Source: Mycobacterium decipiens (GTDB lineage Bacteria; Actinomycetota; Actinomycetes; Mycobacteriales; Mycobacteriaceae). Taken from it: 64,000 nt of DNA. This document shows positions 37,143 through 52,121 of this stretch, in pieces. The DNA lies in assembly GCF_963853665.1 (NCBI RefSeq), contig NZ_OY970459.1, positions 3,162,001 to 3,226,000 of the forward strand. Direction: 5' to 3'. The notes beneath the pieces are model-generated. The model searched no databases. It saw only the letters and a program-made list of their open reading frames with translations, and had not been told where the DNA came from. How positions within the stretch are numbered: position 1 is the first letter of the stretch; every line of letters starts with the position of its first letter. Made by a program: the position numbers and the translations under genes.

Positions 37143-38732
37143 GTGAGCAAAGGCCCAATCGGCGGAATGTCACGCCGAGAGTTTTTGGCCAAAGCCGCCG
37201 CAGGCGGCACCGGGGCTCTGATGTCCTTTGCTGGCCCGGTAATAGAAAAGGCCTATGGAGCGGGGCCATGTTCCGGTCATTTGACCGACATTGAGCACTT
37301 TGTATTGTTCCTGATGGAGAATCGATCATTCGATCACTACTTCGGCACACTCTCCGGCACCGATGGATTCGACACCCCGTCGCTGTTATTCCAGCAAAAG
37401 GGCTGGAACCCACAGACGCAGTCACTCGACCCCGCTGGTGTCACGATTCCCTACCGTTTCGACACCACCCGGTTCCTCCTTGACGGCCAGTGCCTCAGTG
37501 ACCCCGACCACTCCTGGAAGGCGATGCACGACTCCTGGAACGGAGGCGCCAACGACAACTGGCTTCCCGCGCAGATCGGCCACAGTCGAGTGCCGCACAA
37601 CGCCAACGTCCCCGTGACGATGGGCTATCACACCCGCAAGGACATCCCGATCCACTACCTGCTGGCGGACACGTTCACGGTGTGCGACCGATACTTCTCA
37701 TCGGTATTGGGGCCCACCCTGCCCAACCGGCTGTACTGGTTGAGCGCCAACCTCGGGGCCGATGGCACCCAGGGGGGGCCGCAGCTCACGAGCCCCCCCA
37801 CCGACCCGATTGGTCAGTTCAGCTGGACCACGATGCCGGAGAACCTAAGCGCCGCCGGCATCAGCTGGAAGCTATATCGCAACAAGACACTCGGGCCAAT
37901 CGTCAATCAGTACCTCAACTACACCTATGACGACATAGTGATGTTCTTCAAGCAAGCACAGGACCCACGCTCAGATTTGGCTCGCTTCGGCATCTCCCCG
38001 AGCTACCCCTTCGACTTTGCTGCCGACGTCAAAGCCAACAGGCTGCCGCAGGTGTCCTGGGTTGTTCCGAACACCCCCCAGTCCGAACATCCCGCATTCC
38101 CGCCGGCCGTCGGTGCCATCAGCATTGTGAACCTGCTAAGAATATTGCTTTCCAATCCGGCGGTATGGGAAAAGTCCGCGCTGATCGTCTCCTATGACGA
38201 GAATGGCGGTTTCTTCGACCACGTCACACCGCCCACCGCACCACCGGGAACCCCCGGCGAATATCTCACGGTGCCTGACATCAACTCCGTCTCGGGGTCC
38301 GCCGGCATACGCGGGCCGATCGGCTTGGGATTTCGGGTCCCGTGCATCGTCATTTCCCCATATAGCCGCGGCCCGCTGATGGTGCATGACGTGCTCGACC
38401 ACACCTCACAGCTGAAGTTGATCAGCAAGCGGTTTTCGGTGCCGGTTCCCAACCTCAGCACCTGGCGCGATGGCACGGTCGGCGACATGACATCGACGTT
38501 CAACTTCGCCGTCCCGCCCAACCCTTCGCGACCCAATTTGAGTCACCCGGTACTTGACGCCTTGCCCAAACTGCCGCAATGCGTGCCCAACGTGTACTTG
38601 GGGACTATCGGATTGGATCCGAATCCGTATACCGGGTCGCCACAGGGAATCCCTTACCGAGTGCCCTTCCCACAGACGATGCCGACTCAGGAAACCACGC
38701 CCGCACGCGGAATTCCCAGCGGTCTCTGCTAA
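37143..38732 (+). CDS. Tat-exported phospholipase C (PlcA-D family)
   Basis: 529 residues starting at GTG 37143, 8 bp after GGAGG. The N-terminus is a twin-arginine signal ([31 protein letters not shown]). The phosphoesterase domain shows [24 protein letters not shown] (metal-binding Glu/Asn) and later [16 protein letters not shown], both conserved in the Plc/acid-phosphatase AcpA superfamily. It cleaves phosphatidylcholine or sphingomyelin at the cell surface, and homologues are associated with virulence and phagosome escape (literature). Which of plcA-D it matches best cannot be decided by eye. It stands alone and converges on mmpL, with 83 bp between. Confidence 0.9.
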
Positions 38733-38815
38733 CTTCGCAACACCGCGCAAGCAGCGCCACCTGGTCCACCAAGTGGACTCCGCGGAATGGCATCATATGG
38801 CACCGAATCCGGCGG

Positions 38816-41707
38816 CTACTCCGTTGTCCGGCTAGGACGTTGGCGAGGGTCCATCAGCAATGCGCGGACCAACGGTCTAGGCCCGACCGATCGAAGCATT
38901 TGACTGGCCGGGCGGGTGCGGACGATCTTGGGCCACCAGAACCACCGTCCCAGCAACGTGGCGATCGAGGGTGTGATGAGCGAACGGACCACGAGCGTGT
39001 CGAACAGCAAACCGATACCGATCGTCGTGCCGAACTGACCGACTGAGCGCAGGTCGCTGGTGATCATCGATCCCATCGTGAACGCGAACACCAAACCTGC
39101 GGCCGTCACCACCGGGCCGGTGCTAGCCATTCCTCGGATGATCCCGGTCTTGAGCCCGGCGCCGATTTCTTCCTCGAAACGAGAAACGAGCATCAAGTTG
39201 TAGTCGGAGCCGACTGCCAACAGCACAATCAACGCGAATACCAAAGCAACCCAGTGTATTTGGAAGTGAAAAACGTGCTGCCATAACAGGGTCGAGAAGC
39301 CGAAGGCGGCACCCAGCGACATCACAATGGTCCCGACAATGACAAGCGCCGCGACCAGAGCTCGTGTGATAAGAATCATGATGATGAAGATCAACGTGAT
39401 CGCGGCAACCGCGGCAATCATGAAGTCGAATTTCGCCGCGTCCCTGATGTCCTTGAAAGTTGCTGCTGTGCCGCCAAGTACGATGTCGGCGTCCGACAGC
39501 GAGGTCAACTTCAATGCCTGCCGCGCCGCCTCGCGCTCGGCTTCGACGGTCGCGATACCCGCGCTGGTCGCGGGGTCGCCGTCATGCGTGATGATGAACC
39601 GGGCCGCTTTCCCGTCCGGCGAAACCATCAGGTTCAGACCGATCTGAAAGTCTGGATTGTTGAAGACCTCCGGAGGCAGGTAGAACGAGTCGTCGACTTT
39701 TGAATCGTCGAACGCTTGTCCGATGACGTAGTTGGTGTCCGTCATGCGATCCAACTGTTTGACCATGCTGTCGAAAGTGCTGTACATCGTCATCGTCGTG
39801 TTCCGTATCGACTTGGATGTGGCGATCATCGGCGGGATCAATGTGAGCATCTGGTGCGTGGCTAAAGCCGTGTGAGTGAGGTCCTCGGTGAGGTTGTGGA
39901 ACTGCTCGGAGAGCTGGTCGAATCCGTCCAAGCCGTCGAACAGCGACCGGAATGACCAGCAGATCGGGATATCGAAGCAGTGCTTCTCCCAGTAGAAGAA
40001 ACTGCGCATCGGTCTCCAGAAGTCATCGAAATCAGCTAGGTGATTCCGCAATTCGTCGGTGATGGCCGCCGTGGACGCCACCGTGTTGGCGCTGTCGTCA
40101 GCGGCATCGGCCAGGTGCTGAGTCACCGTGTACATGCGCTCCATGATGGAAATCAGGGTGTTGAGGTCATGAATGGTCTTCAGCATGTCAGCCATCCGAT
40201 CATTGAGATACTGCAGGTTGTCTCTGATCGGGACGCTTTGCACGCTGAGCTGAAATGCCACCGACCCATGTTCGATGGGCGGACCGAGCGGTCTGGTGAT
40301 GCTTTGCACGCGTTCGATGCCGGGCAACCGAAAGATGTTCTTGGCCACCCTGTCCAACACAAGTAGATCGGTCGGATTACGCAGATCGTGATCGGTCTCG
40401 ATCATCAGCACATCCGGGTTCAGTCGGGCCTCGGCGAAATGGGCGCCGGCCGCGTCGTACGCCTTTTTCGATGAAACCCGACTCGGGAGGTAGTAGCGCT
40501 CGTTGTAGAGCGGCTGGAAACCCTCCAGCCCCAACGCGCCGACAATGGTGAGCGTGAGCGCGGTCGCCAAAATTGGGCCAGGCCAACGGACGATAGCGGT
40601 CCCGATACGGCGCCATCGCCGATAGTTGGACTCGCGCTTGGGATCAAGCAGACCGAAACGGCTCGCCACGGTGAGAACGGCTGGCCCCAGCGTAAGTGCG
40701 GCACCAACCAGCACGAGCAACCCGATCGAACACGGAACACCCAGCGAATTGAAGTAGGGCAACCTGGTGAAGCGCAGACAATATGTTGCGCCGACAATGG
40801 TCAACCCGGAACCCAAGATGACCTTTGAAACGCCGCTGAAAGTGTCGAAGTACGCGGCTTCGCGATCCATGCCGGTGCTTCGGCCTTCGTGGTACCGGCC
40901 AATGACAAATATTGCGTAGTCCGTCCCCGCCGCGATAGACAACGCCGTAAGCAGATTTACGGCAAATGTCGACAGTCCTATCAGGCCATGAAGTCCAAGG
41001 AACGCGATTACCCCTCGGCTGACGAAAAGCTCGACAAAGACAATGAACAACATGAGCAGCACGGTGACAATCGACCGATAGAAGAAAAGCAGCATGATCG
41101 TGATGACGATGATCGCGATCACCGTCATTCTGGCCATACTCTCGTCGCCGGCCTCGATCGTGTCGGCGGTCAGAGCGCCCTCGCCGGCTACATATGCCTT
41201 GACGCCCTTCGGCGGTTGTGAACGCTCGACGATCTTTCGGACTCCGTGTACGGACTTGTTACCCCGCGCCCCGCCCTGATTACCGACCAAGTTGACCTGA
41301 ACATATGCGGCCTTGTGGTCAAAGCTCTCGACGCCGGACGCCGTGAAACGATGGCCCCAAAAGTCCAGCACGTGTTCAACGTCTTCTTTGTCTTGCCGCA
41401 GCTGACGAACCAAGCCGTCGTAGTACCGGTGAGCATCATCGCCCAGCTTGTTGTCACCGACAATAGTGACCAGGACGAGGTTGTCGGAATCATATTCTTT
41501 GAATTTTTCGCCGATTTTCTTCATTCCGGAAACCGACGGCGCCTCGACGGGCGCCAATGGAACCGCGTGCGCCGCCGCAATCTTTTCTAACTGCGGTACG
41601 AAAACGTTAAGAACGACGGCAAGCGCCAGCCAGATGAGAATGATTGGTATCGAAAACTGGCGGATCCTACGGGCTATGGACACCGACATCTCCTTGGTGT
41701 CGCTCAC
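38816..41707 (-). CDS. MmpL-family RND lipid transporter
   Basis: 963 residues. Two homologous halves each contain a transmembrane bundle. The essential proton-relay Asp-Tyr pairs are GTDYAIFVIGRYHEG in the first half and GSDYNLMLVSRFEEE in the second. Two large periplasmic porter domains lie after helix 1 and helix 7; the second is long and helical (about residues 480-650, with a Cys pair CFDIPIC). This architecture, together with an upstream mmpS, places it in the MmpL4/MmpL5-type group that exports siderophores or glycopeptidolipid/acylated glycolipids. The cargo is not determined. The ATG overlaps the mmpS stop by 4 bp. Confidence 0.92.
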   Translation of the reverse strand: MSDTKEMSVSIARRIRQFSIPIILIWLALAVVLNVFVPQLEKIAAAHAVPLAPVEAPSVSGMKKIGEKFKEYDSDNLVLVTIVGDNKLGDDAHRYYDGLVRQLRQDKEDVEHVLDFWGHRFTASGVESFDHKAAYVQVNLVGNQGGARGNKSVHGVRKIVERSQPPKGVKAYVAGEGALTADTIEAGDESMARMTVIAIIVITIMLLFFYRSIVTVLLMLFIVFVELFVSRGVIAFLGLHGLIGLSTFAVNLLTALSIAAGTDYAIFVIGRYHEGRSTGMDREAAYFDTFSGVSKVILGSGLTIVGATYCLRFTRLPYFNSLGVPCSIGLLVLVGAALTLGPAVLTVASRFGLLDPKRESNYRRWRRIGTAIVRWPGPILATALTLTIVGALGLEGFQPLYNERYYLPSRVSSKKAYDAAGAHFAEARLNPDVLMIETDHDLRNPTDLLVLDRVAKNIFRLPGIERVQSITRPLGPPIEHGSVAFQLSVQSVPIRDNLQYLNDRMADMLKTIHDLNTLISIMERMYTVTQHLADAADDSANTVASTAAITDELRNHLADFDDFWRPMRSFFYWEKHCFDIPICWSFRSLFDGLDGFDQLSEQFHNLTEDLTHTALATHQMLTLIPPMIATSKSIRNTTMTMYSTFDSMVKQLDRMTDTNYVIGQAFDDSKVDDSFYLPPEVFNNPDFQIGLNLMVSPDGKAARFIITHDGDPATSAGIATVEAEREAARQALKLTSLSDADIVLGGTAATFKDIRDAAKFDFMIAAVAAITLIFIIMILITRALVAALVIVGTIVMSLGAAFGFSTLLWQHVFHFQIHWVALVFALIVLLAVGSDYNLMLVSRFEEEIGAGLKTGIIRGMASTGPVVTAAGLVFAFTMGSMITSDLRSVGQFGTTIGIGLLFDTLVVRSLITPSIATLLGRWFWWPKIVRTRPASQMLRSVGPRPLVRALLMDPRQRPSRTTE

Positions 41708-42126
41708 GCGGATTTATCTAAGCAGGAGGTCTGAGCGTTGTGATAATCGGCGCGCTGTTCGTCTACCAATTTGCCGTCGACGGTTATCCGACAACCGATG
41801 TAGTTGCTATTACCCTGCGCGACAACGTAAGCAAAGATTCCGGGCAGCCTGGCGGTGATCGTGCGCGACCAGGGCAGCGTTGAAAAATTCGCTTGCTGAG
41901 GTTTCGCGTTTTCGTCCATCCAGTTGACGACTCCGACCGTCCCGGGGGGCCCAAAGACCTCGTAGGTAGCGCTCTTGGCGGCGTAAGGCGGGGTCTGCGC
42001 CCGCGGATCAAGCTTTGACGGACTGGTGAGCGGAAAGAATCCATGAAGCCGCTCAACGGCAAATCCACCGACGCCGAGCGCCACAACAACAACCAATGGT
42101 ATCCATGCCCGCCTGAGGATGTTCAA
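41704..42126 (-). CDS. MmpS-family accessory protein
   Basis: 140 residues. A single N-terminal membrane anchor (WIPLVVVVALGVGGFAVERLHGFF) is followed by a periplasmic beta-sandwich. The family features are KSATYEVFGPPGTVGVVNWMDENAKPQQ, LPWSRTITARLPGIFAYVVAQGNSNYIGCRITVDGKLVDEQRADYHNAQTSCLDKSA, with the conserved Cys pair near the C-terminus. It is the first gene of an mmpS-mmpL operon, coupled by ATGA. MmpS proteins assist assembly or export by their partner MmpL. Confidence 0.9.
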   Translation of the reverse strand: MNILRRAWIPLVVVVALGVGGFAVERLHGFFPLTSPSKLDPRAQTPPYAAKSATYEVFGPPGTVGVVNWMDENAKPQQANFSTLPWSRTITARLPGIFAYVVAQGNSNYIGCRITVDGKLVDEQRADYHNAQTSCLDKSA

Positions 42127-42535
42127 TCGTTGACTCCCTCCTGGCCGCGCGCTACAGCCTGCACAACACCACCCCGTCGTGGGTGCCTTGCACGGTCACA
42201 TCAGAATGTGATCTCCGGCGGATAAAGATCCACACCGACATGTACAGTACCTGGCATTTTCCCCGTGATTAAGACCGAAGAGATTTTAGAGTCCGGTGGC
42301 CCGATGTTGAGCTTGGCAGGGAGGATCAAACACATGGCTGCTCGCAACCACCGTTCCGCGGAGAACGTCGTGCGCAAGCGCCGCACGGATGTACCGGCTG
42401 CTGGAGAAGAAATTGGTGAAGAGATCGCCGTCGAGCTGGGGTCGCAGCAGCCACGGCGCACAACTGGCGGCGATGGCGTCCCGCGAAGCGGTGAACTGCG
42501 GACCTAGACGCGGTTCGCGCGCGCTGATCAACGAG
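42127..42535. other. Intergenic region upstream of mmpS
   Basis: About 410 bp. A plus-strand frame (42304-42507 or longer) would give a charged, low-complexity peptide without a known domain. The minus strand has similar unsupported frames. The mmpS promoter should be here. I see no regulator gene, although mmpS/mmpL pairs often have a nearby TetR or MarR gene. Confidence 0.4.
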
Positions 42536-43161
42536 TCATGTTGAATGACTAGGTGACTTGGTGTTGTTTGGCAAGCGCCGCTTGGGCGCCCTCGAGCCAC
42601 GCCCCTTCCTCACTCTGGTTCTGGCCCAGCCCAACACTGGAGCAATAGTCAGCGCGCCGTCTCCAACGGCCAGTACCGAGGCGGTCATGCCGCGGCGGCG
42701 GCAGTCGCGCAGCAGGTCAGCCCACGACTCGGTTGACTCACGGTAGCCGTCGGTGATCGCGACCAGTTCCTTGCATCCGTCGGCCCGCACGCCCAGCATC
42801 ACCAGCACGCACAGTTTCTGCTGATCCAGCCGGACCTTGAGATGGATCCCGTCGACTCACAGGTACAGGTGGTCGGTGCCCGACATATCACGCGCGGCTA
42901 ACCTTGGCTTCGTGGTGCCACTGGCCGGTGTGCCGAGTAATCGTGGTCGCTGACAACCGGCCCCGAACCCAGGAACTGCTCCAAGACTGACCCAAAATCC
43001 CCGCTGGACAGCCCGGACAGGGTACAGCAACGGCAACATCTCGGCCATCTGCGCGACTTGCGCGCCCAGGCGGGCGCGATCGCCGAGGAGAACCGCTGCC
43101 GCTCACCGGAATCCGGGTCGACGTGTTTGTCGTTGACCCGCGGCGCAGTGCCCACATTCAC
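42536..43161 (-). pseudogene. Decayed IS256/mutator-type transposase
   Basis: Minus-strand fragments in several frames together recover the middle of an IS256-family transposase. Near 43140-42950 come RVNDKHVDPDSGERQRFSSAI and SGLSSGDFGSVLEQFLG. A shifted frame gives TGQWHHEAKVSRA and ARDMSGTDHLYL. Then 42808-42650 gives VMLGVRADGCKELVAITDGYRESTESWADLLRDC, the most conserved region, and VLAVGDGALT. At least two frameshifts and a stop (near 42857) separate them. The C-terminal third with the catalytic Glu is missing, replaced after 42650 by unrelated sequence. I could not find terminal inverted repeats. Confidence 0.82.
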
Positions 43162-43733
43162 GCCACCTCATCGAAGCTCATCCACAGGTTTCGATCATTC
43201 CTACCAACACTGTCAACAACACCCCAGGCCCCTTGAGCCGGTCGGCATCGCCCCGAAATCCCGATCACCACAGGGGGACATATTCCTGGCACTGTGGTCG
43301 CTCAGCCACCGGGCGGGCATCCGGTATACCGGCCACCCTTCCGCCGCGTGCAGTCCAATCACCGCCTGCCCGTGTGCAACCCCACTTCCGCTCGGACAAA
43401 CGTCGCTAGGTGATCTTGAACACGTTTACTCATCAAGCAGTACACAATCCGTTCATCGCTCAGTGCACACTGCAGCACCGATCGCCATCGAGGTGTTCGC
43501 GGACAACACCGCCGGCGGCCGAGCACAGCATCCCAACCCGAAAGCCCGGGCCGCCCAAATCGCCACGCTCACAAACCGGTTCCCGTGGTCGATCAGCTCG
43601 GGTATGCCCAGCGCGGGGGCTATTCGATGACTCTCGGATGCGCGGCCGCGCCACACTGCGGACCGGGACAGGGACCAGTCCCGCCAGCTGCCCAAGTGAA
43701 CGAGATGACCGAAACCTACGTGACCGTTACCTA
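43162..43733. other. Region without recognisable genes
   Basis: About 570 bp between the transposase remnant and the palindrome. A minus-strand frame (44136-43453) and overlapping plus frames are open, but their products show no domain, ribosome site or codon bias. It is probably eroded accessory DNA. Confidence 0.45.
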
Positions 43734-43753
43734 TACCTACGTAACCGTAGGTA
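43734..43753. promoter_or_regulatory. Perfect 8-bp-arm palindrome, candidate repressor operator
   Basis: TACCTACG-TAAC-CGTAGGTA is a perfect inverted repeat with a 4-bp spacer. A second, imperfect copy starting ACCTACG-TGAC-CGT begins at 43714, exactly 21 bp (two helical turns) upstream of the main left arm. Just downstream is TTGACA (43771-43776) and then TGTATGGT near 43796-43803, a plausible promoter reading toward the 44-49 kb operon. The pattern is typical of TetR/GntR-type dimer sites; no regulator gene is adjacent. Confidence 0.55.
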
Positions 43754-43894
43754 TTAGCAATTGCCAACAGTTGACAAATGCAACAGTCCATGACATGTAT
43801 GGTTTGGAGCGCTTTGTGTTGCGCTGCTTCATGATTCGACACGAGCGTTGGGCCGAGCAGGTCGGCGCAACACCTGGGAGGGATATCAGTAGTG

Positions 43895-43951
43895 ATGTTG
43901 CGCGTGGTGTCTGAAGGCTTGGCGGCGGCCAATGCGGCGGTGGAGCGCTGA
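43895..43951 (+). pseudogene. PE-family gene remnant (frameshifted 5' end)
   Basis: ATG with GGGAGGG upstream opens MLRVVSEGLAAANAAVER then TGA. Restoring one G after codon GAG changes this to ...AAVEALTARFA, the consensus N-terminus of the PE15/PE20-like group (LRVVPEGLAAASAAVEALTARLA). Similarity ends after about 25 residues, so the rest of the gene is gone. A single-base deletion plus truncation explains it. Confidence 0.65.
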
Positions 43952-44073
43952 CCGCTCGGTTCGCTAACCGGGTGGACCATTTCTGGTGGTGATACCTGAC
44001 CTGCTTGCGTCGCTGTTAGCAGCAAGTTCGACTCATTTGCCATTGTCAATCCCCAACAAGGAGTTTGGAAGTT

Positions 44074-45213
44074 ATGATCGCTTGCACGCAGATGCCCCTT
44101 GTCCGACCGGATATCACCACGCAGCATGGTGTGCAAGGAGATGTACCGGTCGCGGTCCGGTCGGTGCTCGTGAAACTAGCCCTGCGCGAACGTATCCCGT
44201 CAACAGAGCTCGGCGAGGCATTCGCCGCGTGCCTCGAATTGCCGGTGCCTGTACGCGACGTTGTGATGGGTTCTGTCATGACGGCGGTCATGTTGACTGG
44301 TCCGGACGTGGATGCCGTCGAGACCCTGCTCCGCATCGCCCTGTCTCTAGATGGGCTTGCGGCAGAGCAGATTCCGCACGAGGGGATCAACCGTCCCATT
44401 ATTGTCCTGGCAGGCAGCGGCAAAAAGGGCGAGCGCACCCTGAACGTATCGACGCCGGCGGCGCTGTTGGCCGCGGCTGCGGGAGCTGCCGTCGTCAAAG
44501 TGGGCTCGACCGCGACATCTTCGGCGCTGGGGTCACGGGATCTGATGCGATCGCTAGGGATCATCGAGGACGAGTCCACGACGGAGGTTCAGCGGAGCCT
44601 GCAAACGTGCGGGTTTTCCTTCGTCGCGATCGAGCCACGGATACCACAACTGGACCAGGTCTACGGCAGTCGGTTCTATGCGCCCAACCCGTTCTCGTTC
44701 GGGCTGGCCGCGTTGGTGAGCCCGGTCAGGGGCGATCTCATGCTGTTCGGGCTGGCTCATCCCCGCGTTGATGTCTCGGCGCAGGTACTTTACCGCTTCG
44801 GCCTGGATAACGTCGACGTCATCTCGACCCGCACGGCCGCCGGGCGCTACATTGATGAGCTTGGACCTGCTGGGCAGGTGCTCCTGGCTCGGGTGGACCG
44901 CGGCATACTTTCTGACGCACAGGCGATGCCGGCGCTATCGTTCACACGCCGCGGATTCGACGAACATCTACTGCCGGCGCCAGAAGATGCGGATACGGCC
45001 GTTGAGCGGACGCTGGACCTGCTGGCGGGTAACGGTCTGGCCAGTCACCGCCGGGTGGTCACGCTCAACGCCGGCTATCTGCTGACGCGTTCGCGAATCA
45101 CCGCCACATTGCCCGACGGGATCGACCTTGCCGAAGAGGTGCTGCGAAGCGGAGCCGTCTCAGACCTTGTGCGACTCCTGGGAAGCGTTGACCGCCAAGA
45201 GCAGACGGCCTAG
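44074..45213 (+). CDS. TrpD-fold (anthranilate phosphoribosyltransferase-like) protein
   Basis: 379 residues from ATG 44074, with AAGGAG 11 bp upstream. The fold is glycosyltransferase family 3/TrpD. A helical N-terminal domain (residues 25-100) is followed by GSGKKGERTLNVSTPAALLAAAAGAAVVKVGSTATSSALGSRDLMRSLGI (114-163), which parallels TrpD's GTGGDG...FNIST...KHGNRAxSS..GSADVLEALG. PNPFSFGLAALVSP corresponds to TrpD's FNLLGPLxNP. The PRPP/Mg loop is altered (GSGKKG for GTGGDG) and KHGNR becomes KVGST, so the acceptor, and perhaps the donor, differ from anthranilate/PRPP. Predicted role: transfer of a phosphoribosyl group to, or its cleavage from, an aromatic or azole substrate. It is the first gene of a five-gene operon. 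Confidence 0.72.
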   Translation: MIACTQMPLVRPDITTQHGVQGDVPVAVRSVLVKLALRERIPSTELGEAFAACLELPVPVRDVVMGSVMTAVMLTGPDVDAVETLLRIALSLDGLAAEQIPHEGINRPIIVLAGSGKKGERTLNVSTPAALLAAAAGAAVVKVGSTATSSALGSRDLMRSLGIIEDESTTEVQRSLQTCGFSFVAIEPRIPQLDQVYGSRFYAPNPFSFGLAALVSPVRGDLMLFGLAHPRVDVSAQVLYRFGLDNVDVISTRTAAGRYIDELGPAGQVLLARVDRGILSDAQAMPALSFTRRGFDEHLLPAPEDADTAVERTLDLLAGNGLASHRRVVTLNAGYLLTRSRITATLPDGIDLAEEVLRSGAVSDLVRLLGSVDRQEQTA

Positions 45214-45383
45214 TCGATGACTCGGGCCCCCGACGATGCCGGTATGCGAGGCCCGTTCCGCACACCATGATCCAAAGCGGCTGGACGGCAACGAATCCAG
45301 CAAGATTCACAAAGTATCGCAAGCCCGGGCACAACGATGTGCGAGAGGCTTGCGCATGTATATAGCAGGGTGGAGGCCGGATA

Positions 45384-46439
45384 GTGACTGAGCCAGTATT
45401 GTTTTCAGAGGCGTATTACCAAAAGACGTTGGCAGAGTTTGGCTACAGCCCATTCGAACTGCGGAAATTCGACTTCCCGCTAGCCGGGATAGACACCGAT
45501 ACGCTCAATGCACGCTACCTGTGTAACTATCGCGGCGATCAGCACCTCAACTTTGCACCCGAACGCCGGATCATCACCACGGGATTCGGCATGTCTGGCG
45601 TTCCGCATCTCGCCACGGTCGCGCAGATCCTGAAAATTATTGAGCTGCAGCGCGGCGGGGAAAGGTGCCAAATCGTGCTCGGCGACCTCGACGCCTACAA
45701 CGGCAAGGTTCGGTCGTTCAGCCAGGTCCGCGCGCTTGCCGACGACTTCGAGGAGTACGTGCTGCGTCTGGGGTTTGATCCCGCCCGCGGCACGGTCCGG
45801 GCACAAGACGGACACCATGCCGCGTTGGAAGCGATGTATCTCATCGGACGCTACGTCGACCAGCGGGATTTCGACCGGGCTGAGGAGGACAACCACTCCT
45901 ACTATGCCGCCCAGGGTGTGGTCGACTCCTCGATGACGTTTCGGCGAGCGTTGTCACTTTGCCTGATGGCTGCCGATTTTATTGCGCTCGGGCAGACCCA
46001 CGACGCCGTGCTCGTCACGCTGGGGATCGATGAGCACAAATATGTCCGGTTCGCCACCGACGTATGCCGGCGGCTGGACGAAGAATCGCCGCTCCGTACG
46101 GGTTTCACGATATCGGCGGCCTATACGCGAATGGTGCGTGGCTTCGGCGGTCATCCGAAGTTCTCCAAGAGCATCCCAGGGTCGGCCATCGATATGACTT
46201 CGACGGCCGATCAGGTCCGCACACAGCTGCTCGGCGAACCGCCTCTGCCGGCCGTGTCCGCCACGTACCAGCTAATGTGCGAACTGCCGTGCTACACGGT
46301 CGAGGACCTTCGTGACCTCCACAAATGGTGCATTGAGGGTGGGCGCGCCTGGCAACTGGCGGTGCTGGACCTCGCCGACTATGTGATCGACCTCATCGGC
46401 AAGTGGCCTGCAACTGCAACAGCACGCAACGGCGAATGA
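45384..46439 (+). CDS. Tryptophanyl-tRNA synthetase-like protein (class I aaRS paralogue)
   Basis: 351 residues from a GTG preceded by GGAGG (45374-45378). The class I catalytic Rossmann fold is recognisable. RIITTGFGMSGVPHLATVAQILKI occupies the place of the HIGH region but reads H-L-A-T (residues 75-78). CQIVLGDLDAYNGK follows, then GIDEHKYVRFATDV (214-227), like the archaeal TrpRS GIDQDPHIRLTRDI. KFSKSIPGSAIDMTST (259-274) is the KMSKS loop in the form seen in archaeal/eukaryotic TrpRS. The C-terminal helical domain is short, and no tRNA-binding add-on is obvious. The housekeeping TrpRS should be elsewhere, so this is probably a specialised amino-acid- or acid-activating enzyme or an inhibitor-resistant copy. 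The stop overlaps the next gene (ATGA). Confidence 0.75.
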   Translation: MTEPVLFSEAYYQKTLAEFGYSPFELRKFDFPLAGIDTDTLNARYLCNYRGDQHLNFAPERRIITTGFGMSGVPHLATVAQILKIIELQRGGERCQIVLGDLDAYNGKVRSFSQVRALADDFEEYVLRLGFDPARGTVRAQDGHHAALEAMYLIGRYVDQRDFDRAEEDNHSYYAAQGVVDSSMTFRRALSLCLMAADFIALGQTHDAVLVTLGIDEHKYVRFATDVCRRLDEESPLRTGFTISAAYTRMVRGFGGHPKFSKSIPGSAIDMTSTADQVRTQLLGEPPLPAVSATYQLMCELPCYTVEDLRDLHKWCIEGGRAWQLAVLDLADYVIDLIGKWPATATARNGE

Positions 46440-47872
46440 TGTCGAACAAGATGGAGATATCTCCGCGAAAGGCGTGTATGAGCCGACTGGACCAATCCGT
46501 CAAGAGTGCGACGGACTTGCTGCGAGGCGCCGACCTGTCGTCGGATGAGGCCGTACGCACCTTGTTGGAAATCACGACCGCGCGTCGCCGGCTGGACCTC
46601 TCGGACCTGCCCCCACATGAGCAGGCGCAGCTGATAGCGTCCCGGTCCCAGCAGGTGCAACCCGCTAGGGAAGCTCTGGCGGAAAGGATCGCCAAGGCCA
46701 CTAACGACGGCCGTCCATTCGTGGCGAAGTTCGGCATCGATCCGACCGGCAGCGAAGTCCACCTCGGCCATGCGGTGCCCATGCTGATTCTGTCCCGCAT
46801 TCAGCGGATGGGTCACCACGTGGTGTTCATCGTCGGCGACTTGACGGCCAAGGTGGGCGATCCCACCGGCCGCTCGGACGAACGTCCGCTGCTGACCGAC
46901 GAGGATATCGCGCGCAACCTCGCCACCTACCGGCACCAGGTCGCGCCATTCTTCGACTTCGCCCACGCGGAGTTCCGGTTCAACGGCGACTGGCTCGAGC
47001 GGATCACCCTGCCGCGGCTGCTGGAGGTCGCGTCCCACATTCCGATATCGATGCCGCTTCAGCGCGAGGACTTCCGCAACCGCCTTGAGGCCGGGCATGG
47101 GCTGTCACTGGCCGAGCTGCTGTATTCGGTGACGATGGCACTCGATTCAGTTGAGATCAACTGCGACCTTGAAGTGGGTGGCATCGACCAGTACCTCAAT
47201 ATGCAGATGTGCCGCAAGGTCATGGACATCTGCGGTCAAGTCCCAGAGTTGGTCGTTGCCACCAAACTGATCGAAGGTACAGACGGCACCGGCGCGAAGA
47301 TGTCCAAGTCCAAGGGGAACTACGTCGCGATCGCTGCACCCGCGGGCGAGATCTACGGCAAGCTGATGTCGGTGGCCGATCAAGCCGTCGACTCGTACTA
47401 CCTCGCCTTGACCGAATGGCTCGACAGCGAGGTGTCGATAGCCCAGACGCGACGCGCGGACGGCACGCTTCACCCACTGGACCTCAAGAAAATCCTGGCA
47501 GGCGAGATGACCGCTGCGATCTACGGCGTCGACACGGCGATGAAGGCGCGCGAGGAGTTCGCCGCGCAATTTGCGACGCGTCGTTTCGGCAATCTAGCAG
47601 ATCTACCAATAATCACCGATCCGAGCAGAGTCGTGTTTGACGTGGTTAGGGAGCTGGGGTTTGCAAAAAGCAACAGCGACGTCCGCCGTTTGGCCGCACA
47701 ACGGGCGCTTCGGTTGGTCGTTGAATGCGCCGAAGGCCAGCAGCAAGTCGTGCTCGCCGTTGACGACGTCTTCATGCCGCTTAATGCCGTCGCCGAGGTG
47801 AGTGGTCCGGACAGCTACTTCCTTAAGGCGGGACGAAAGCTCGCGCGGATCAAGCCACCGTCGTCTCGCTGA
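46436..47872 (+). CDS. Tyrosyl-tRNA synthetase-like protein (class I aaRS paralogue)
   Basis: 478 residues from ATG 46436 (ATGATG; 46439 is an equal candidate). Residues 1-95 form a basic/helical extension before the catalytic domain, longer than usual for TyrRS. Catalytic motifs are intact: FGIDPTGSEVHLGH (HIGH at 109-112), FIVGDLTAKVGDPTGRS, EGTDGTGAKMSKSKGN (KMSKS at 288-292). An S4-like C-terminal part follows (about 400-475). The substrate pocket reads LLYSVTMALDSV (228-239) where TyrRS normally has LLYPLLQGYDSV. Asp237 is kept, but the pocket Gln is Met234. GGTDQ becomes GGIDQ (248-252). This suggests ATP activation of a tyrosine-like substrate with a changed alpha-amino environment. 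Confidence 0.82.
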   Translation: MMSNKMEISPRKACMSRLDQSVKSATDLLRGADLSSDEAVRTLLEITTARRRLDLSDLPPHEQAQLIASRSQQVQPAREALAERIAKATNDGRPFVAKFGIDPTGSEVHLGHAVPMLILSRIQRMGHHVVFIVGDLTAKVGDPTGRSDERPLLTDEDIARNLATYRHQVAPFFDFAHAEFRFNGDWLERITLPRLLEVASHIPISMPLQREDFRNRLEAGHGLSLAELLYSVTMALDSVEINCDLEVGGIDQYLNMQMCRKVMDICGQVPELVVATKLIEGTDGTGAKMSKSKGNYVAIAAPAGEIYGKLMSVADQAVDSYYLALTEWLDSEVSIAQTRRADGTLHPLDLKKILAGEMTAAIYGVDTAMKAREEFAAQFATRRFGNLADLPIITDPSRVVFDVVRELGFAKSNSDVRRLAAQRALRLVVECAEGQQQVVLAVDDVFMPLNAVAEVSGPDSYFLKAGRKLARIKPPSSR

Positions 47873-47875
47873 CTC

Positions 47876-48568
47876 GTGAAGGCCATACCGAACGCGGTGG
47901 TTCTAGATTTGTTCGGGACCCTGGTCGGCGCGCCCGCGGCTGCCGATCGGCGTCGCGCGTCGACTCGACTGGCCCACCGTATCGGCTCGAGCCCGGGCCA
48001 GGTCGAGGATTATTTTCTGTCAACCTGGACGACGCGGCATGACGGCACGCTGCCGACGGTGTCCGCGCTTGCCGAACACCTTGTCCGATGGGTTGGCGCG
48101 TCGGCTGTTGACGCAGATCTCGTCGCCGACGAACTTCGGGCCATTGGCAGCGATCGGCTGGTTGCTGACGAATCCGTAGTCCAGACATTGGTATTGCTGC
48201 GGCAGATGGGCTTGAAAGTGGGTGTGCTCAGCGACGCGACCGCTGAGATCTCGGAATGCTGGGAAACCAGTTGCCTGGCACCGCTTGTCGACGCAGCGGT
48301 CTTCAGTTGCACAGCCGGAGCGACGAAGCCGGATCGACGGCTGTACCAAGCGATCTGCGAGCGACTTGGCGCAACCGCAAACTCCATCGTCTACTGCGGC
48401 GATGGGGGCGGCAATGAACTGTGCGGCGCGCACGACGCAGGCATGCAAGCACTCGGCGTCGTTCGCCGGGGCGGTCCGGATGCTCTCGTGTTCGGCGAAA
48501 AAGAGTGGAATGGTGCGCGGATCTCACGCATTGAGCGTCTTCCGACCTATGTGGCGTCCCTGGTATGA
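47876..48568 (+). CDS. HAD-superfamily hydrolase
   Basis: 230 residues from a GTG 3 bp after the TyrRS-like stop. Motif I is VVLDLFGTLVG: the nucleophilic Asp is present and the second Asp is Gly (DLFGT), a form shared by haloacid-dehalogenase-type members and some phosphatases. Motif II is VGVLSDAT, motif III Lys lies in AGATKPDRRLY, and motif IV is VYCGDGGGNELCGA, with metal-binding Asp followed by a Gly-rich loop. An alpha-helical C1 cap lies at about residues 15-85. In context it may remove the 5'-phosphate from a ribosylated intermediate or dehalogenate a substrate. It overlaps the next gene by 4 bp. Confidence 0.82.
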   Translation: MKAIPNAVVLDLFGTLVGAPAAADRRRASTRLAHRIGSSPGQVEDYFLSTWTTRHDGTLPTVSALAEHLVRWVGASAVDADLVADELRAIGSDRLVADESVVQTLVLLRQMGLKVGVLSDATAEISECWETSCLAPLVDAAVFSCTAGATKPDRRLYQAICERLGATANSIVYCGDGGGNELCGAHDAGMQALGVVRRGGPDALVFGEKEWNGARISRIERLPTYVASLV

Positions 48569-49542
48569 GGGCCTGGGAGTACTGCGACGGCGAGCTGCGA
48601 CTGCGAACGGTCGATCCCCCTGAACCAGTCGACGACGAAATCGTCGTCGATGTACGTTACAGCGGCATCTGTGGCAGTGACATAGCTAAAATCCTTAATC
48701 CACAGCACTTTTCGCTTCCCACCCGGTGGCGCCCGGGCCACGAGGTGGTCGGCACAGACCAGACGGGGCAATGGGTTGCGATCGACCCACTCGTCGCGTG
48801 CGGTCACTGCGCGGACTGCGCCGCACGCAGCAACCACCTTTGTCGGGACCTGAAACGCCTGGGATGGGACATGCCGGGCGGGTTTGCTGAGCAGGTGAGC
48901 GTCCCGCTTGGGCAGATTCACCCGCTGCCTAGCGACCTCGATCCGCGAGTCGCTACCCTGGCCGACCCGGCCGCCGTGGCCATCCACGGCCTGCGCTGCA
49001 CACCGCTCCACGCCTCCGGGCGGCTGGCGGTAATCGGTGCTGGGACGGTAGGGCTACTTACCGGGCTCTACGCGGCATCCGCGGGCTGGGATGTCACGGT
49101 GATTCACCGAAACGGAAAGCGCCCTGCGGCGGCCGCCTTCGCCGACATGCTCACCTTCCAGCCAGAAGCAACCGCCAGCGGGCCGGACCACTTCCAGGTC
49201 GTGGTCGACGCGGCGAGCGGGGCCACCTCAACGCCGCTAGAACAGGCGCTGCGACTCGTCGCCGATGGTGGATCGGTCGTCGTGGTCAATGCATACGCCC
49301 CTGCGGTCACGCTGCGAACCCCGTTACGCGACATCTTTCGACGCTCGATCCAGCTGATCGGGTCGTTCTCGTACTGCCGACGCAGCGAATACGGCGACTT
49401 CGTGGCGGCTCTTGGGCTGCTGCGCGCACATCATCATCGGCTTGAACTGCTGGTCGGCGAGGTTGGCGGCCTGGCGGACCTTCCGGCCGCGATTTCCGGC
49501 AACGCCATGTCGGGCACCCGACGGGTGATGCGGTGCGGCTGA
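48565..49542 (+). CDS. Zinc-dependent medium-chain dehydrogenase
   Basis: 325 residues from ATG 48565 (ATGA overlap). GroES-like domain: catalytic zinc ligands in YSGICGSDIAK (Cys) and RPGHEVVGTD (His, Glu). The structural zinc set CGHCADCAARSNHLC is complete. Rossmann domain: LAVIGAGTVGLLTGLYAASAG, then FQVVVDAASG and GGSVVVVNAY. It is slightly shorter than the usual 340-350 residues. It resembles sorbitol/threonine dehydrogenase-type enzymes and would oxidise or reduce a secondary alcohol, for example a sugar hydroxyl of the operon's intermediate. It is the last gene of the operon and ends about 85 bp before the convergent MFS gene. Confidence 0.84.
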   Translation: MRAWEYCDGELRLRTVDPPEPVDDEIVVDVRYSGICGSDIAKILNPQHFSLPTRWRPGHEVVGTDQTGQWVAIDPLVACGHCADCAARSNHLCRDLKRLGWDMPGGFAEQVSVPLGQIHPLPSDLDPRVATLADPAAVAIHGLRCTPLHASGRLAVIGAGTVGLLTGLYAASAGWDVTVIHRNGKRPAAAAFADMLTFQPEATASGPDHFQVVVDAASGATSTPLEQALRLVADGGSVVVVNAYAPAVTLRTPLRDIFRRSIQLIGSFSYCRRSEYGDFVAALGLLRAHHHRLELLVGEVGGLADLPAAISGNAMSGTRRVMRCG

Positions 49543-49626
49543 AGCCCCGACGACAATTCGGTGTTCGTGTAGTCGTTATCGCGACGGAGCGCCTGCCCGG
49601 GGTCGGGTCTGCGGATCCCTCGGCGA

Positions 49627-50949
49627 TCAGGTAGGCGCCGATCCGTCGTCGCGCACAGTGGCACTCGGCACCCGGTAGCGGATGAACGCCGGCGCAGCCA
49701 GCGAGACGGCCAACATCCCGACCACGACGAGCACCCCGCCGCCGGCCACGGCCGCGGACGTGCCGATCACGGCCCCCGCAGCGCCGTGTAGTGCGTCGGC
49801 CAGCCGGGGCCCGCCGGCGATCACCACGACCAGCACGCCCTGCAGCCGCCCAACCAATTCGGCGGAGGCCGCTTGCTGGCGGATGGTCTGCTTGAGCGCG
49901 ACCGCCACCATGGTCGCCGCACCCCCGACAGCCAAGAAGGCCAGTGCCGCCCACAGCATCGGGCCCGCCCGCCCGTGGGCCTGCCCGCTGACCAATCCGA
50001 AGCCCACGATTGCCAAACCCCACGCGGTGATCGACGCGACGATCGCCAGTCCTTGACGCCGGATCCGCGGCAACCAGCCCGAGAACACGCCACCGATCAT
50101 TGACCCGACCGCCATCGCAGCCGATAGCAACGCCATCGCGGTACCGCCGCCGAGCGGGCCGCCGAAACTGTCGTGCGCAATCTGCGGGAACAGCGCTCGC
50201 GGCAGGCCCAGGACCATGGCAATCAAGTCGACCACAAATGACATCAGCACGACGGTGTTGCCGGCCAGATAGCGGAACCCGTCCAGCACCGCGCGCACTC
50301 CCCAGCGCGACGTCCCGTCGGCGTCGGCAATATCGACGGCTGGGATGGGCGCCAGCCGAAACGTCGCCCAGATCGGCACCAGGCAGGTCAGGGTGTCGAC
50401 CAGATACAGCGCCGACAGGTCAAGCCAGCGCAGCAGCACCCCACCGGCCAGTGCCGGCCCGAAAATCGCGCCGAACTGAACCAGAGTCATGTTCAGCGAG
50501 TTGGCGGCGGGCAACTGATCGCCGCTCAGAATCCGGGGAAACGCGGCTGACCGCGCTGGCGAGTTCACCGCGTAGCAGGCTTGCTGCAGCGACAGCAGGC
50601 ACAGCACGACCCAGGCGTTGTTGAGTGCCAGCGCAGCCTGCAGCCAGAGCAACAGTGACGCCGCCACCAGGCCCCATGAGGTGACGATCAGGAGCGTGCG
50701 CCGGTCCATCGCATCGGCCCAGGCCCCGCCCCAAAGTCCGAAAACAACCACCGGTACCAGCGCAAACAAGCCGCTGAGGCCTATGTATGCAGAATTTTGG
50801 GTCAGCTCAAACAGCTGCACGGGAACCGCGAACACGGTCAGGTTGGCACCGATGACCGTGGGTATGCCAGCAAGCCAGAGCCTGCGGAAGTCTGGGGTCC
50901 GCAGCGGAGTGGTGTCGGCGAGAAGCCGCAAAGCCAAAGATCTACGCAT
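49627..50949 (-). CDS. MFS exporter (EntS/MFS_3-like)
   Basis: 440 residues from MRRSLALRLLADTTPLRTPDFRRLWLAG. About 12 membrane helices with typical MFS_3 features: FALVPVVVFGLWGGAWADAMDRRTLL (loop 2-3 motif), QQACYAVNSPARSAAFPRIL, and GGAATMVAVALKQTIRQQAASAELVGRLQGV. This group contains enterobactin-type and macrolide-like exporters. It converges on the five-gene aaRS-like operon and could export that product. It could equally be an independent gene linked to the downstream RNase H operon, from which it is separated by 53 bp on the same strand. Confidence 0.85.
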   Translation of the reverse strand: MRRSLALRLLADTTPLRTPDFRRLWLAGIPTVIGANLTVFAVPVQLFELTQNSAYIGLSGLFALVPVVVFGLWGGAWADAMDRRTLLIVTSWGLVAASLLLWLQAALALNNAWVVLCLLSLQQACYAVNSPARSAAFPRILSGDQLPAANSLNMTLVQFGAIFGPALAGGVLLRWLDLSALYLVDTLTCLVPIWATFRLAPIPAVDIADADGTSRWGVRAVLDGFRYLAGNTVVLMSFVVDLIAMVLGLPRALFPQIAHDSFGGPLGGGTAMALLSAAMAVGSMIGGVFSGWLPRIRRQGLAIVASITAWGLAIVGFGLVSGQAHGRAGPMLWAALAFLAVGGAATMVAVALKQTIRQQAASAELVGRLQGVLVVVIAGGPRLADALHGAAGAVIGTSAAVAGGGVLVVVGMLAVSLAAPAFIRYRVPSATVRDDGSAPT

Positions 50950-51002
50950 TGGGGTGCTCACGAGAAAGCACCAGCTCACTGGTTGGGTGCATCGTGGCCG
51001 AG

Positions 51003-52121
51003 CTAGAGATAGCCCGTCTGGTTCACCAGCCGCACCGACGACGCTCCATCGGAATAGAACTCGGCGATGCTCAGCGATGCCAGATCAAGATGCAACCGGT
51101 ACAGCACGCCCGCCCCGGCATCCAACGCGAGCTGCAGCACCATTTTGATCGGCGTCACATGCGACACCACAAGCACCGTCGTGCCTTCGTATCCGACGAT
51201 GATCCGGTCCCGTCCCCGCCGAACCCGCTGCAGCACGTCGTCGAAGCTTTCCCCACCAGGCGGCGCGGTGCTGGTGTCGCGCAGCCACCGACGATGCAAC
51301 TCGGGGTCGCGTTCGGCGGCCTCCGCGAACGTCAGACCCTCCCAAGCACCGAAGTCCGTCTCGACCAGGTCGTCATCGACGATCACCTCCAGACCCAGGG
51401 CCCTGGCGGCGGTCACCGCGGTGTCGTAGGCGCGCTGCAACGGCGAGGAGACCACTGCGGCGATCCCGCCGCGCTGCGCCAGATACCCGGCCGCCGCACC
51501 AACCTGGCGCCACCCCACCTCACTGAGTCCCGGGTTGCCGCGCCCGGAATAACGGCGCTGCACCGACAACTCCGTCTGCCCGTGACGTAACAAGAGCAGC
51601 CGGGTCGGTGTACCGCGCGCACCGGTCCAGCCGGGAGCTGTCGGAGACTCCGTCGCAACGATTTTCGCGGGCTCGGCAGCAACCGGAACCGCGGTTTTCT
51701 CCCCTGCGCGATTGGCGCGGGCGGCGGCGTCCATCGCGTCATTGGCCAACCGGTCTGCGTGGGAGTTCCGCTCGCGCGGAACCCAGGAATAGCCGATCCG
51801 GTGAAACCGCGAAGCCAGTGCTTGAGCCTGAGCATGTAGCTTCACCAGGTCTGGGTGCTTGACTTTCCATCGCCCAGACATCTGCTCCACCACCAGCTTG
51901 GAATCCATCAGCACCGCGGCCTCGGTGGCACCCAGTTTCACGGCGTCGTCCAAACCGGCTATCAAGCCCCGATATTCAGCGACGTTGTTCGTCGCCCGGC
52001 CGATCGCCTGCTTGGATTCGGCCAGCACGGTCGAGCGATCGGCGGTCCACACCACCGCGCCATATCCGGCCGGTCCGGGGTTGCCCCGCGACCCGCCGTC
52101 CGCTTCGATGACAACTTTCAC
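51003..52121 (-). CDS. Bifunctional RNase HI / alpha-ribazole phosphatase (Rv2228c-like)
   Basis: 372 residues. Residues 1-140 are an RNase H domain: IEADGGSRGNPGPAGYGAV (first catalytic Asp), NNVAEYRGLIAGL (Glu), VLMDSKLVVEQM (Asp), HADRLANDAMD (last acidic residue). A Pro/Ala linker follows. Residues ~170-372 are a histidine phosphatase: LLLLRHGQTELSVQRRYSG, SSPLQRAYDTA, and VSHVTPIK with the second catalytic His. The M. tuberculosis protein degrades RNA-DNA hybrids and dephosphorylates alpha-ribazole phosphate for cobalamin (literature), consistent with cobC and cobD nearby. The GTG start overlaps the upstream stop by one base (TAGTG). Confidence 0.93.
   Translation of the reverse strand: MKVVIEADGGSRGNPGPAGYGAVVWTADRSTVLAESKQAIGRATNNVAEYRGLIAGLDDAVKLGATEAAVLMDSKLVVEQMSGRWKVKHPDLVKLHAQAQALASRFHRIGYSWVPRERNSHADRLANDAMDAAARANRAGEKTAVPVAAEPAKIVATESPTAPGWTGARGTPTRLLLLRHGQTELSVQRRYSGRGNPGLSEVGWRQVGAAAGYLAQRGGIAAVVSSPLQRAYDTAVTAARALGLEVIVDDDLVETDFGAWEGLTFAEAAERDPELHRRWLRDTSTAPPGGESFDDVLQRVRRGRDRIIVGYEGTTVLVVSHVTPIKMVLQLALDAGAGVLYRLHLDLASLSIAEFYSDGASSVRLVNQTGYL

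Follow-up and report, generated by a model that had tools for sequence, protein, structure and literature searches.

Within a 64,000-nt stretch of the Mycobacterium decipiens genome (the window; positions 3162001-3226000 of a one-contig genome of 5.3 Mb), five plus-strand genes encode a TrpD-like phosphoribosyltransferase, two relatives of the tryptophanyl- and tyrosyl-tRNA synthetases (TrpRS and TyrRS), a HAD-superfamily protein and a zinc-dependent dehydrogenase. We give an even chance to the interpretation that this group is a shortened version of a gene cluster for the synthesis of a nucleoside-like TyrRS inhibitor, an aminoacylated ribosyl compound; the TyrRS relative would be the self-resistance copy. 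The genes and the remnant between them are as follows:

44074..45213, plus strand: TrpD-like phosphoribosyltransferase of a GSGKK subfamily (PF00591); the frame is slightly longer if read from a TTG at 44065
45261..45350, plus strand: GT4 remnant, the C-terminal end of the cluster glycosyltransferase (tblastn)
45384..46439, plus strand: TrpRS-like protein (TrpRSL), GTG start, PF00579 at 64.6 bits; a divergent synthetase-fold enzyme and our query for the cluster
46478..47872, plus strand: a TyrRS from a separate lineage (TyrRSL) and probably the self-resistance copy, PF00579 at 178.5 bits; alternative starts at 46436 and 46403
47876..48568, plus strand: HAD-superfamily protein with the motif DLFGT (PF00702, 45.7 bits)
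48565..49542, plus strand: zinc-dependent medium-chain dehydrogenase of the polyol/threonine dehydrogenase type (PF08240 and PF00107)

All five frames are present and intact in the list of open reading frames (ORFs) at the coordinates given by a first-pass annotation of the window, and its description of tightly spaced plus-strand genes agrees with the ORF positions. The TrpD-like and TrpRSL genes are 170 bp apart, TrpRSL and TyrRSL overlap by 4 bp if the latter starts at 46436, a 3-bp gap separates TyrRSL from the HAD gene, and the HAD and dehydrogenase genes overlap by 4 bp. For TyrRSL, the longest frame opens at 46403, the ATG at 46436 creates the overlap, and the ATG at 46478 is where homologues begin. 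Comparison with orthologues gave ratios of non-synonymous to synonymous substitution rates (dN/dS) of 0.17-0.28 for the five frames, a range that omits two comparisons with the locus L012, namely TrpRSL (dS infinite) and the HAD gene (dS 3.9, ratio 0.11). Because the gene families recur jointly in unrelated genomes and all five frames are under constraint, the operon is more than a chance arrangement. The annotated five-gene operon stands as five intact ORFs but not as a complete system, since orthologous clusters and the GT4 remnant mark it as the remains of an eight-gene one.

TyrRSL scores above the tyrS equivalog cut-off (TIGR00234, 233.3 bits against 113.8), has intact HLGH and KMSKS motifs and is 33% identical to the housekeeping TyrRS across 216 BLAST-aligned residues. 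A profile search of 342 genomes of the Saccharopolyspora spinosa family returned 20 matches at E <= 1e-90, of which 17 scored in the range of the cluster copies. Eleven of these 17 genomes, all Pseudonocardiaceae (L102-L112), carry TyrRSL without TrpRSL, and the 5 to 20 kb around these lone copies contained no other cluster gene at E 1e-4; those neighbours that were checked are ordinary genes, for example for acyl-CoA carboxylase and biotin ligase, and in one case for a zinc dehydrogenase. For 8 of the 11 genomes, whose completeness is unstated, the TyrRSL lineage provides the only TyrRS found, the other PF00579 genes all being TrpRS (with a second TyrRSL in G1204), and the remaining three additionally hold an ordinary TyrRS. 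The PF00579 search was positive in 14 of 14 control genomes, and in G1251, one of the eight, with a stated genome size of 7.4 Mb, a single 7.1-Mb contig carries all three PF00579 genes. Since no other TyrRS was found in these eight genomes, the lineage appears able to serve as the cell's TyrRS, and we conclude that TyrRSL is very probably a working TyrRS lineage, a judgement that concerns the lineage and not the window copy. Phylogenetic analysis placed the actinobacterial copies and that of L022 in one clade, with lone and cluster copies interleaved, and grouped the L020 copy with another TyrRS. TyrRSL may have escaped from clusters to replace the housekeeping TyrRS in several Pseudonocardiaceae, or it may have been captured from such lineages.

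At a position where the Gln of TyrRS contacts the amino group, the actinobacterial and L022 TyrRSL proteins have Met. We dropped this replacement as a mark of a non-amino-acid substrate, since copies that are the sole TyrRS of their genome share it, and retain it only as a candidate resistance change. Bacterial TrpRS can have Met at this position, as does the TrpRS of the variant locus L037 described below at the corresponding position.

The first-pass annotation would have been overturned had the two synthetases proved to be the ordinary housekeeping enzymes of this genome, and neither is. Four PF00579 genes are present, and the two outside the window encode an ordinary TyrRS and an ordinary TrpRS, which rules out TyrRSL and TrpRSL as the housekeeping synthetases. 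A separate TrpD is located at 3141279-3142097, approximately 65 kb away, so that TyrRSL, TrpRSL and the TrpD-like protein are all additional copies here. A TyrRS apart from the cluster was also found, and checked by sequence, in 11 other cluster-bearing genomes plus G783, G785, G786 and G799. No TyrRS besides the cluster copy was found in G787 and G794, both of which may be incomplete; the search of G787 also failed to recover the usual main TrpRS, indicating that this genome is probably incomplete.

TrpRSL has a TrpRS/TyrRS-type synthetase fold and scores below the curated trpS cut-offs (41.6 against 176.75 for TIGR00233, and at most 48.5 against 320-891 for the PRK12285 models). Because it retains K-x-S-K-S and the first His of HIGH, it may activate its substrate unaided. 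In a tree that compared the 20 cluster TrpRSL proteins and two distant forms with five archaeal-type TyrRS/TrpRS, TrpRSL formed its own clade with branch support of 100/97, a value to be read with the caution that long branches demand. The TrpD-like protein likewise falls below the trpD cut-off (TIGR01245, 110 against 199.05), has the TrpD fold with the Mg-binding Asp261-Glu262 pair and also keeps Lys142. The glycine-rich loop of canonical TrpD reads GTGGD; it is replaced by GSGKK, invariant in 14 aligned copies, and for this reason the acceptor is probably not anthranilate. HAD phosphatases carry a DxD motif with a second catalytic Asp, and the first-pass annotation had assigned a dephosphorylation step to the HAD protein. 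That assignment is weakened by the DLFGT motif, found in 10 of 10 aligned actinobacterial copies with Phe at the second-Asp position, and the protein may lack phosphatase activity; the second Asp is present in a different HAD protein that adjoins the core in L019. The nearest NCBIfam models to the dehydrogenase are threonine and polyol dehydrogenases, with scores below cut-off.

A protein search with TrpRSL identified 304 relatives, with Saccharopolyspora, Amycolatopsis, Frankia, Streptomyces, Nocardiopsis and Rhizobium rhizogenes as named taxa among the matches listed. From a scan with one genome per species we obtained 20 TrpRSL loci, hosted by actinobacteria, an alphaproteobacterium, a member of the Acidobacteriaceae and genomes labelled Magasanikbacteria, Dojkabacteria and Moranbacteria (candidate phyla radiation, CPR) or Woesearchaeota and Nanoarchaeota (DPANN). 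One locus, L010, is labelled Melainabacteria; its genome was drawn within the S. spinosa family, so the label is probably wrong. The cluster is rare. At E-value limits of 1e-30 or 1e-25, the window's own genome was the single positive both among 401 genomes of its family and among 396 of its phylum, just as the Dojkabacteria genome was among 286 of the phylum to which it belongs; the S. spinosa family had 9 positives in 346 genomes, two of them distant forms and one cut by a contig end. No TrpRSL relative was found among viral contigs, phages and plasmids.

Gene content across the 20 loci was counted at E <= 1e-10, with loci cut by contig ends scored as misses (L010, for example, starts at TrpRSL). 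TrpRSL is present in all 20 by selection (broken in L024), the dehydrogenase in 17 (one of them a fragment), a second synthetase in 17, the TrpD-like gene in 16, GT4 in 12, a methyltransferase in 10, GT2 in 9, the window-type HAD gene in 8, a radical SAM gene in 4 and a HIT gene in 3. Every locus has at least one cluster family besides TrpRSL, which in L015 is only GT4. In actinobacteria the genes usually run TrpD-like, methyltransferase, GT4, GT2, TrpRSL, TyrRSL, HAD, dehydrogenase; GT4 lies outside this order in L005 and L008, and L013 and L014 differ. Linkage was also evident from contig sizes, as 43 of 114 TrpD-like matches share the exact longest-contig size with one of 120 TrpRSL matches (the best 120 of the 304), compared with a mean of 0.5 and a maximum of 3 when sizes were shifted by 1 to 30 either way. 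TrpRSL, the TrpD-like protein and the zinc dehydrogenase are a shared core, usually accompanied by a complete TyrRS. The neighbourhood search that the first-pass annotation had called for favours its suggestion of one pathway, in that the TrpD-like gene co-occurs with both synthetase-like genes across phyla. We found no description of such a cluster in the open literature, a search that leaves most subscription papers outside it; the main text of a 2010 survey of synthetase-like proteins (PMC2922099), the part of that source covered here, contains none of the terms 'phosphoribosyl', 'glycosyltransferase', 'anthranilate' and 'TrpD'.

Some loci show further peculiarities. Amycolatopsis rhizosphaerae has two cluster copies (L006 and L007), with one TrpD-like gene seemingly split by a frameshift. 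In Streptomyces (L024:10064-12014) the broken TrpRSL adjoins an intact TyrRSL, as if the TyrRS had outlived the pathway. An AMP-binding enzyme, an aldehyde dehydrogenase and a weak nucleoside deoxyribosyltransferase match lie near TrpRSL and TyrRSL in L021:7472-13162, a sulfotransferase gene is located beside the core in L022, and a B3/4-domain protein and an AAA ATPase are encoded downstream of the cluster in L014:14568-16459. B3/4 domains occur in the editing of phenylalanyl-tRNA synthetase.

The window copy retains a trace of the larger arrangement. A tblastn comparison against 270 bp detected, in the 170-bp gap and on the same strand as the operon, a stretch similar to approximately residues 316-345 of GT4; four of six GT4 homologues found this remnant (E 4e-6 to 3e-5) and two gave no match. 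A search of the whole window returned a GT4 match at the same place (E 0.027) and no convincing methyltransferase or GT2. On the strength of the remnant and of these negative searches, the methyltransferase, most of GT4 and GT2 have probably been lost, and the window copy may make a simpler compound, make none or only give resistance.

The second-synthetase position proved variable. All nine proteins tested, from 7 of the 20 loci and from L037, pass a TyrRS or TrpRS cut-off: bacterial TyrRS in L007, L016, L019, L020, L021 and L022, TrpRS in L037, and archaeal TyrRS in L017 and, in addition to the bacterial one, in L019. Because several lineages fill this slot, the second synthetase is better explained as a swappable working target and is less likely to be a pathway enzyme. 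L037 (8072-14209) is a distant variant with a TrpRSL of 27% identity, GT4 and the TrpRS in the second-synthetase slot; an epimerase-like gene follows its TrpRSL, and its TrpD-like gene is broken by an insertion with a transposase-like ORF. L038:594-2509 is also a distant variant of the system. Genome G1140 has an L037-type TrpRSL at the start of one contig and a TrpRS of 82% identity near the end of another, and the two are likely linked. The only TrpRS found in Frankia G799 (L142) is 80% identical to that of L037, and the cluster of this genome has TyrRSL; L037-type TrpRS can therefore probably serve translation. The other TyrRS of G799 is of a type related to TyrRSL.

If the cluster directs synthesis of a TyrRS inhibitor, the TrpD-like protein would transfer phosphoribose from phosphoribosyl pyrophosphate onto an acceptor other than anthranilate, and the HAD protein and dehydrogenase would trim or oxidise the ribosyl unit. 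TrpRSL would activate an aromatic amino acid, most likely tyrosine, and join it to the ribosyl unit to give a tyrosyl-adenylate mimic, which in the fuller clusters would be decorated by glycosyltransferases, the methyltransferase and the radical-SAM enzyme. TyrRSL, being insensitive, would keep translation running. HIT-like genes adjoin the core in L016, L018 and L020, only three of the 20 loci and all among the seven non-actinobacterial ones (the assignment was checked with Pfam for L016 only); their products would fit immunity to a phosphoramidate-type compound, as HIT hydrolases confer immunity to microcin C (PMC7157772).

Several observations weigh against this interpretation. The HAD protein lacks the second Asp usual in phosphatases, the HIT linkage comes from three loci, and the window copy has lost three genes, hence a simpler product or none is possible. 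Some clusters are incomplete in ways that do not fit: L009 keeps the TrpD-like gene and TrpRSL with neither TyrRSL nor another second synthetase, L018 has no second synthetase in 21 kb, L015 lacks both the TrpD-like gene and a second synthetase and has TrpRSL and GT4 as its cluster content, and L021 has no TrpD-like gene or dehydrogenase in the stretch examined. The zinc dehydrogenase gene mentioned above adjoins the lone TyrRSL in L103, with no match to the cluster dehydrogenase at E 1e-4. Tyrosine is only the most likely choice of amino acid for TrpRSL, and the L037-type TrpRS, as the sole TrpRS found in Frankia G799 (at 80% identity), may too be an ordinary exchanged enzyme. Exchange of TyrRS among bacteria is known to occur without any antibiotic, as described in the accessible part of PMC3191353, and lone TyrRSL copies therefore need not be resistance genes.

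Other explanations of the second synthetase were considered. TyrRSL could act as a supplier that charges tRNA-Tyr, from which TrpRSL would move tyrosine to the ribosyl scaffold, in which case the product need not inhibit TyrRS. Such a division of labour exists between AcmD and AcmF of ascamycin biosynthesis (PMC12945691) and is compatible with TyrRSL being a working TyrRS type. We nevertheless regard it as unlikely, since the housekeeping TyrRS could provide Tyr-tRNA, TrpRSL with its K-x-S-K-S and first HIGH His may activate alone, and the lone TyrRSL copies outside clusters would be left unexplained. The main model of the first-pass annotation, that the two synthetase-like proteins each activate aromatic acids, which are then condensed with a ribosylated aromatic compound, draws on the fact that the genes travel together and could accommodate the replacement of the amino-group-contacting Gln by Met in TyrRSL of actinobacteria and L022. 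Sole-TyrRS copies share the Met, which consequently does not exclude tyrosine, and the slot is held by unrelated lineages, once by a TrpRS; with the TyrRSL lineage being a genuine TyrRS that apparently serves alone elsewhere, this model is not borne out and we consider it very improbable. The same lineage evidence now favours the alternative offered in that annotation, in which one synthetase would confer resistance to an inhibitor made by the others.

The glycosyltransferases, methyltransferase and, once, the sulfotransferase that adjoin the core raise the further idea that the product is a glycosylated ribosyl compound with a surface or signalling role, and that TyrRSL is kept against some other stress, D-tyrosine for example. 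A second TyrRS (TyrZ) can indeed protect against D-Tyr, according to the part of PMC9437257 available. This would explain neither why a divergent synthetase is a core gene nor why the L037 variant has a TrpRS partner, and we think it quite unlikely. An inhibitor cluster with a resistant TyrRS remains our preferred interpretation.

Two neighbouring features complete the local picture:

42536..42808, minus strand: Mutator-family transposase fragment upstream of the cluster (PF00872, 26.6 bits, profile positions 184-234 of 379)
49627..50979, minus strand: MFS transporter (EntS-like), a neighbour judged to lie outside the cluster

The convergent MFS gene had been put forward as an exporter of the product. 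We rejected it as part of the cluster because relatives occur in 13 of 20 other genomes of the same genus, and in the 6 of these 13 regions inspected none of the other 11 window genes tested was present. The proposed location in an accessory block with mobile-element debris is upheld in part by the transposase fragment; transfer of the cluster is suggested by its rarity in the family (1 genome in 401). Upstream of the transposase fragment, at window positions 37143-42126, lie a phosphoesterase-family gene and an MmpS/MmpL-type pair. No Rfam match was found in 40000-52000, and no tRNA within the window.

A broader and more tentative proposal, on which we lean towards doubt, is that these loci make up a family of weapon clusters that spans domains, occurs in Actinomycetota, Acidobacteria, an alphaproteobacterium, CPR and DPANN, and produces aminoacyl-ribosyl synthetase inhibitors by means of a TrpRS/TyrRS-fold ligase. 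The loaded amino acid would set the target and each cluster would carry a swappable resistant copy, mostly TyrRS and in L037 TrpRS, whose gene would have escaped to replace the housekeeping TyrRS in several Pseudonocardiaceae or have been captured from such lineages. If the inhibitor interpretation is true, the cluster would offer a handle on natural TyrRS inhibitors, for which the literature passages available name one compound and in which no gene cluster was found; as far as our literature search shows, no cluster for a TyrRS inhibitor would have been described before. It would also provide a dedicated TrpRS/TyrRS-type synthetase-fold ligase in small-molecule synthesis and a type of self-resistance gene that in several genomes is the sole TyrRS found, and the same core in CPR and DPANN organisms, with their very small genomes, would point to the production of synthetase-directed compounds there.

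Among known systems, the mycothiol ligase MshC offers a precedent for joining an amino acid to a sugar compound by a relative of the synthetases. MshC is a relative of cysteinyl-tRNA synthetase, whereas TrpRSL belongs to PF00579. SB-219383, a tyrosine-like natural TyrRS inhibitor from Micromonospora (PMC7916415, PMC9054317; both seen in part), resembles the possible target and product type, with no link to these genes established; no gene cluster for it was found in the literature covered. Producers of albomycin, mupirocin and indolmycin have second synthetases of roughly 30% identity (passages of PMC9437257), comparable to the 33% between TyrRSL and the housekeeping TyrRS, although their targets are the seryl-, isoleucyl- and tryptophanyl-tRNA synthetases and the target here would be TyrRS, with TrpRS in the L037 variant. 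The SB-203208 cluster similarly contains an extra synthetase copy for a synthetase inhibitor; there the single isoleucyl-tRNA synthetase-like SbzA is both resistance protein and transferase (PMC12945691), in contrast to the two separate proteins found here. A parallel in layout is the ascamycin (acm) cluster described in the same source, in which AcmF, a divergent relative of alanyl-tRNA synthetase, loads alanine on the nucleoside and AcmD, an extra canonical alanyl-tRNA synthetase, charges tRNA and resists. Both systems place two synthetase relatives near a nucleoside scaffold pathway, and here too one is a divergent protein in its own clade and the other an extra canonical synthetase in the cluster (17 of 20 loci). 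The acm proteins are of the alanyl-tRNA synthetase family and AcmF has lost ATP-binding residues, whereas TrpRSL keeps its signature motifs and is accompanied by a TrpD-like protein.

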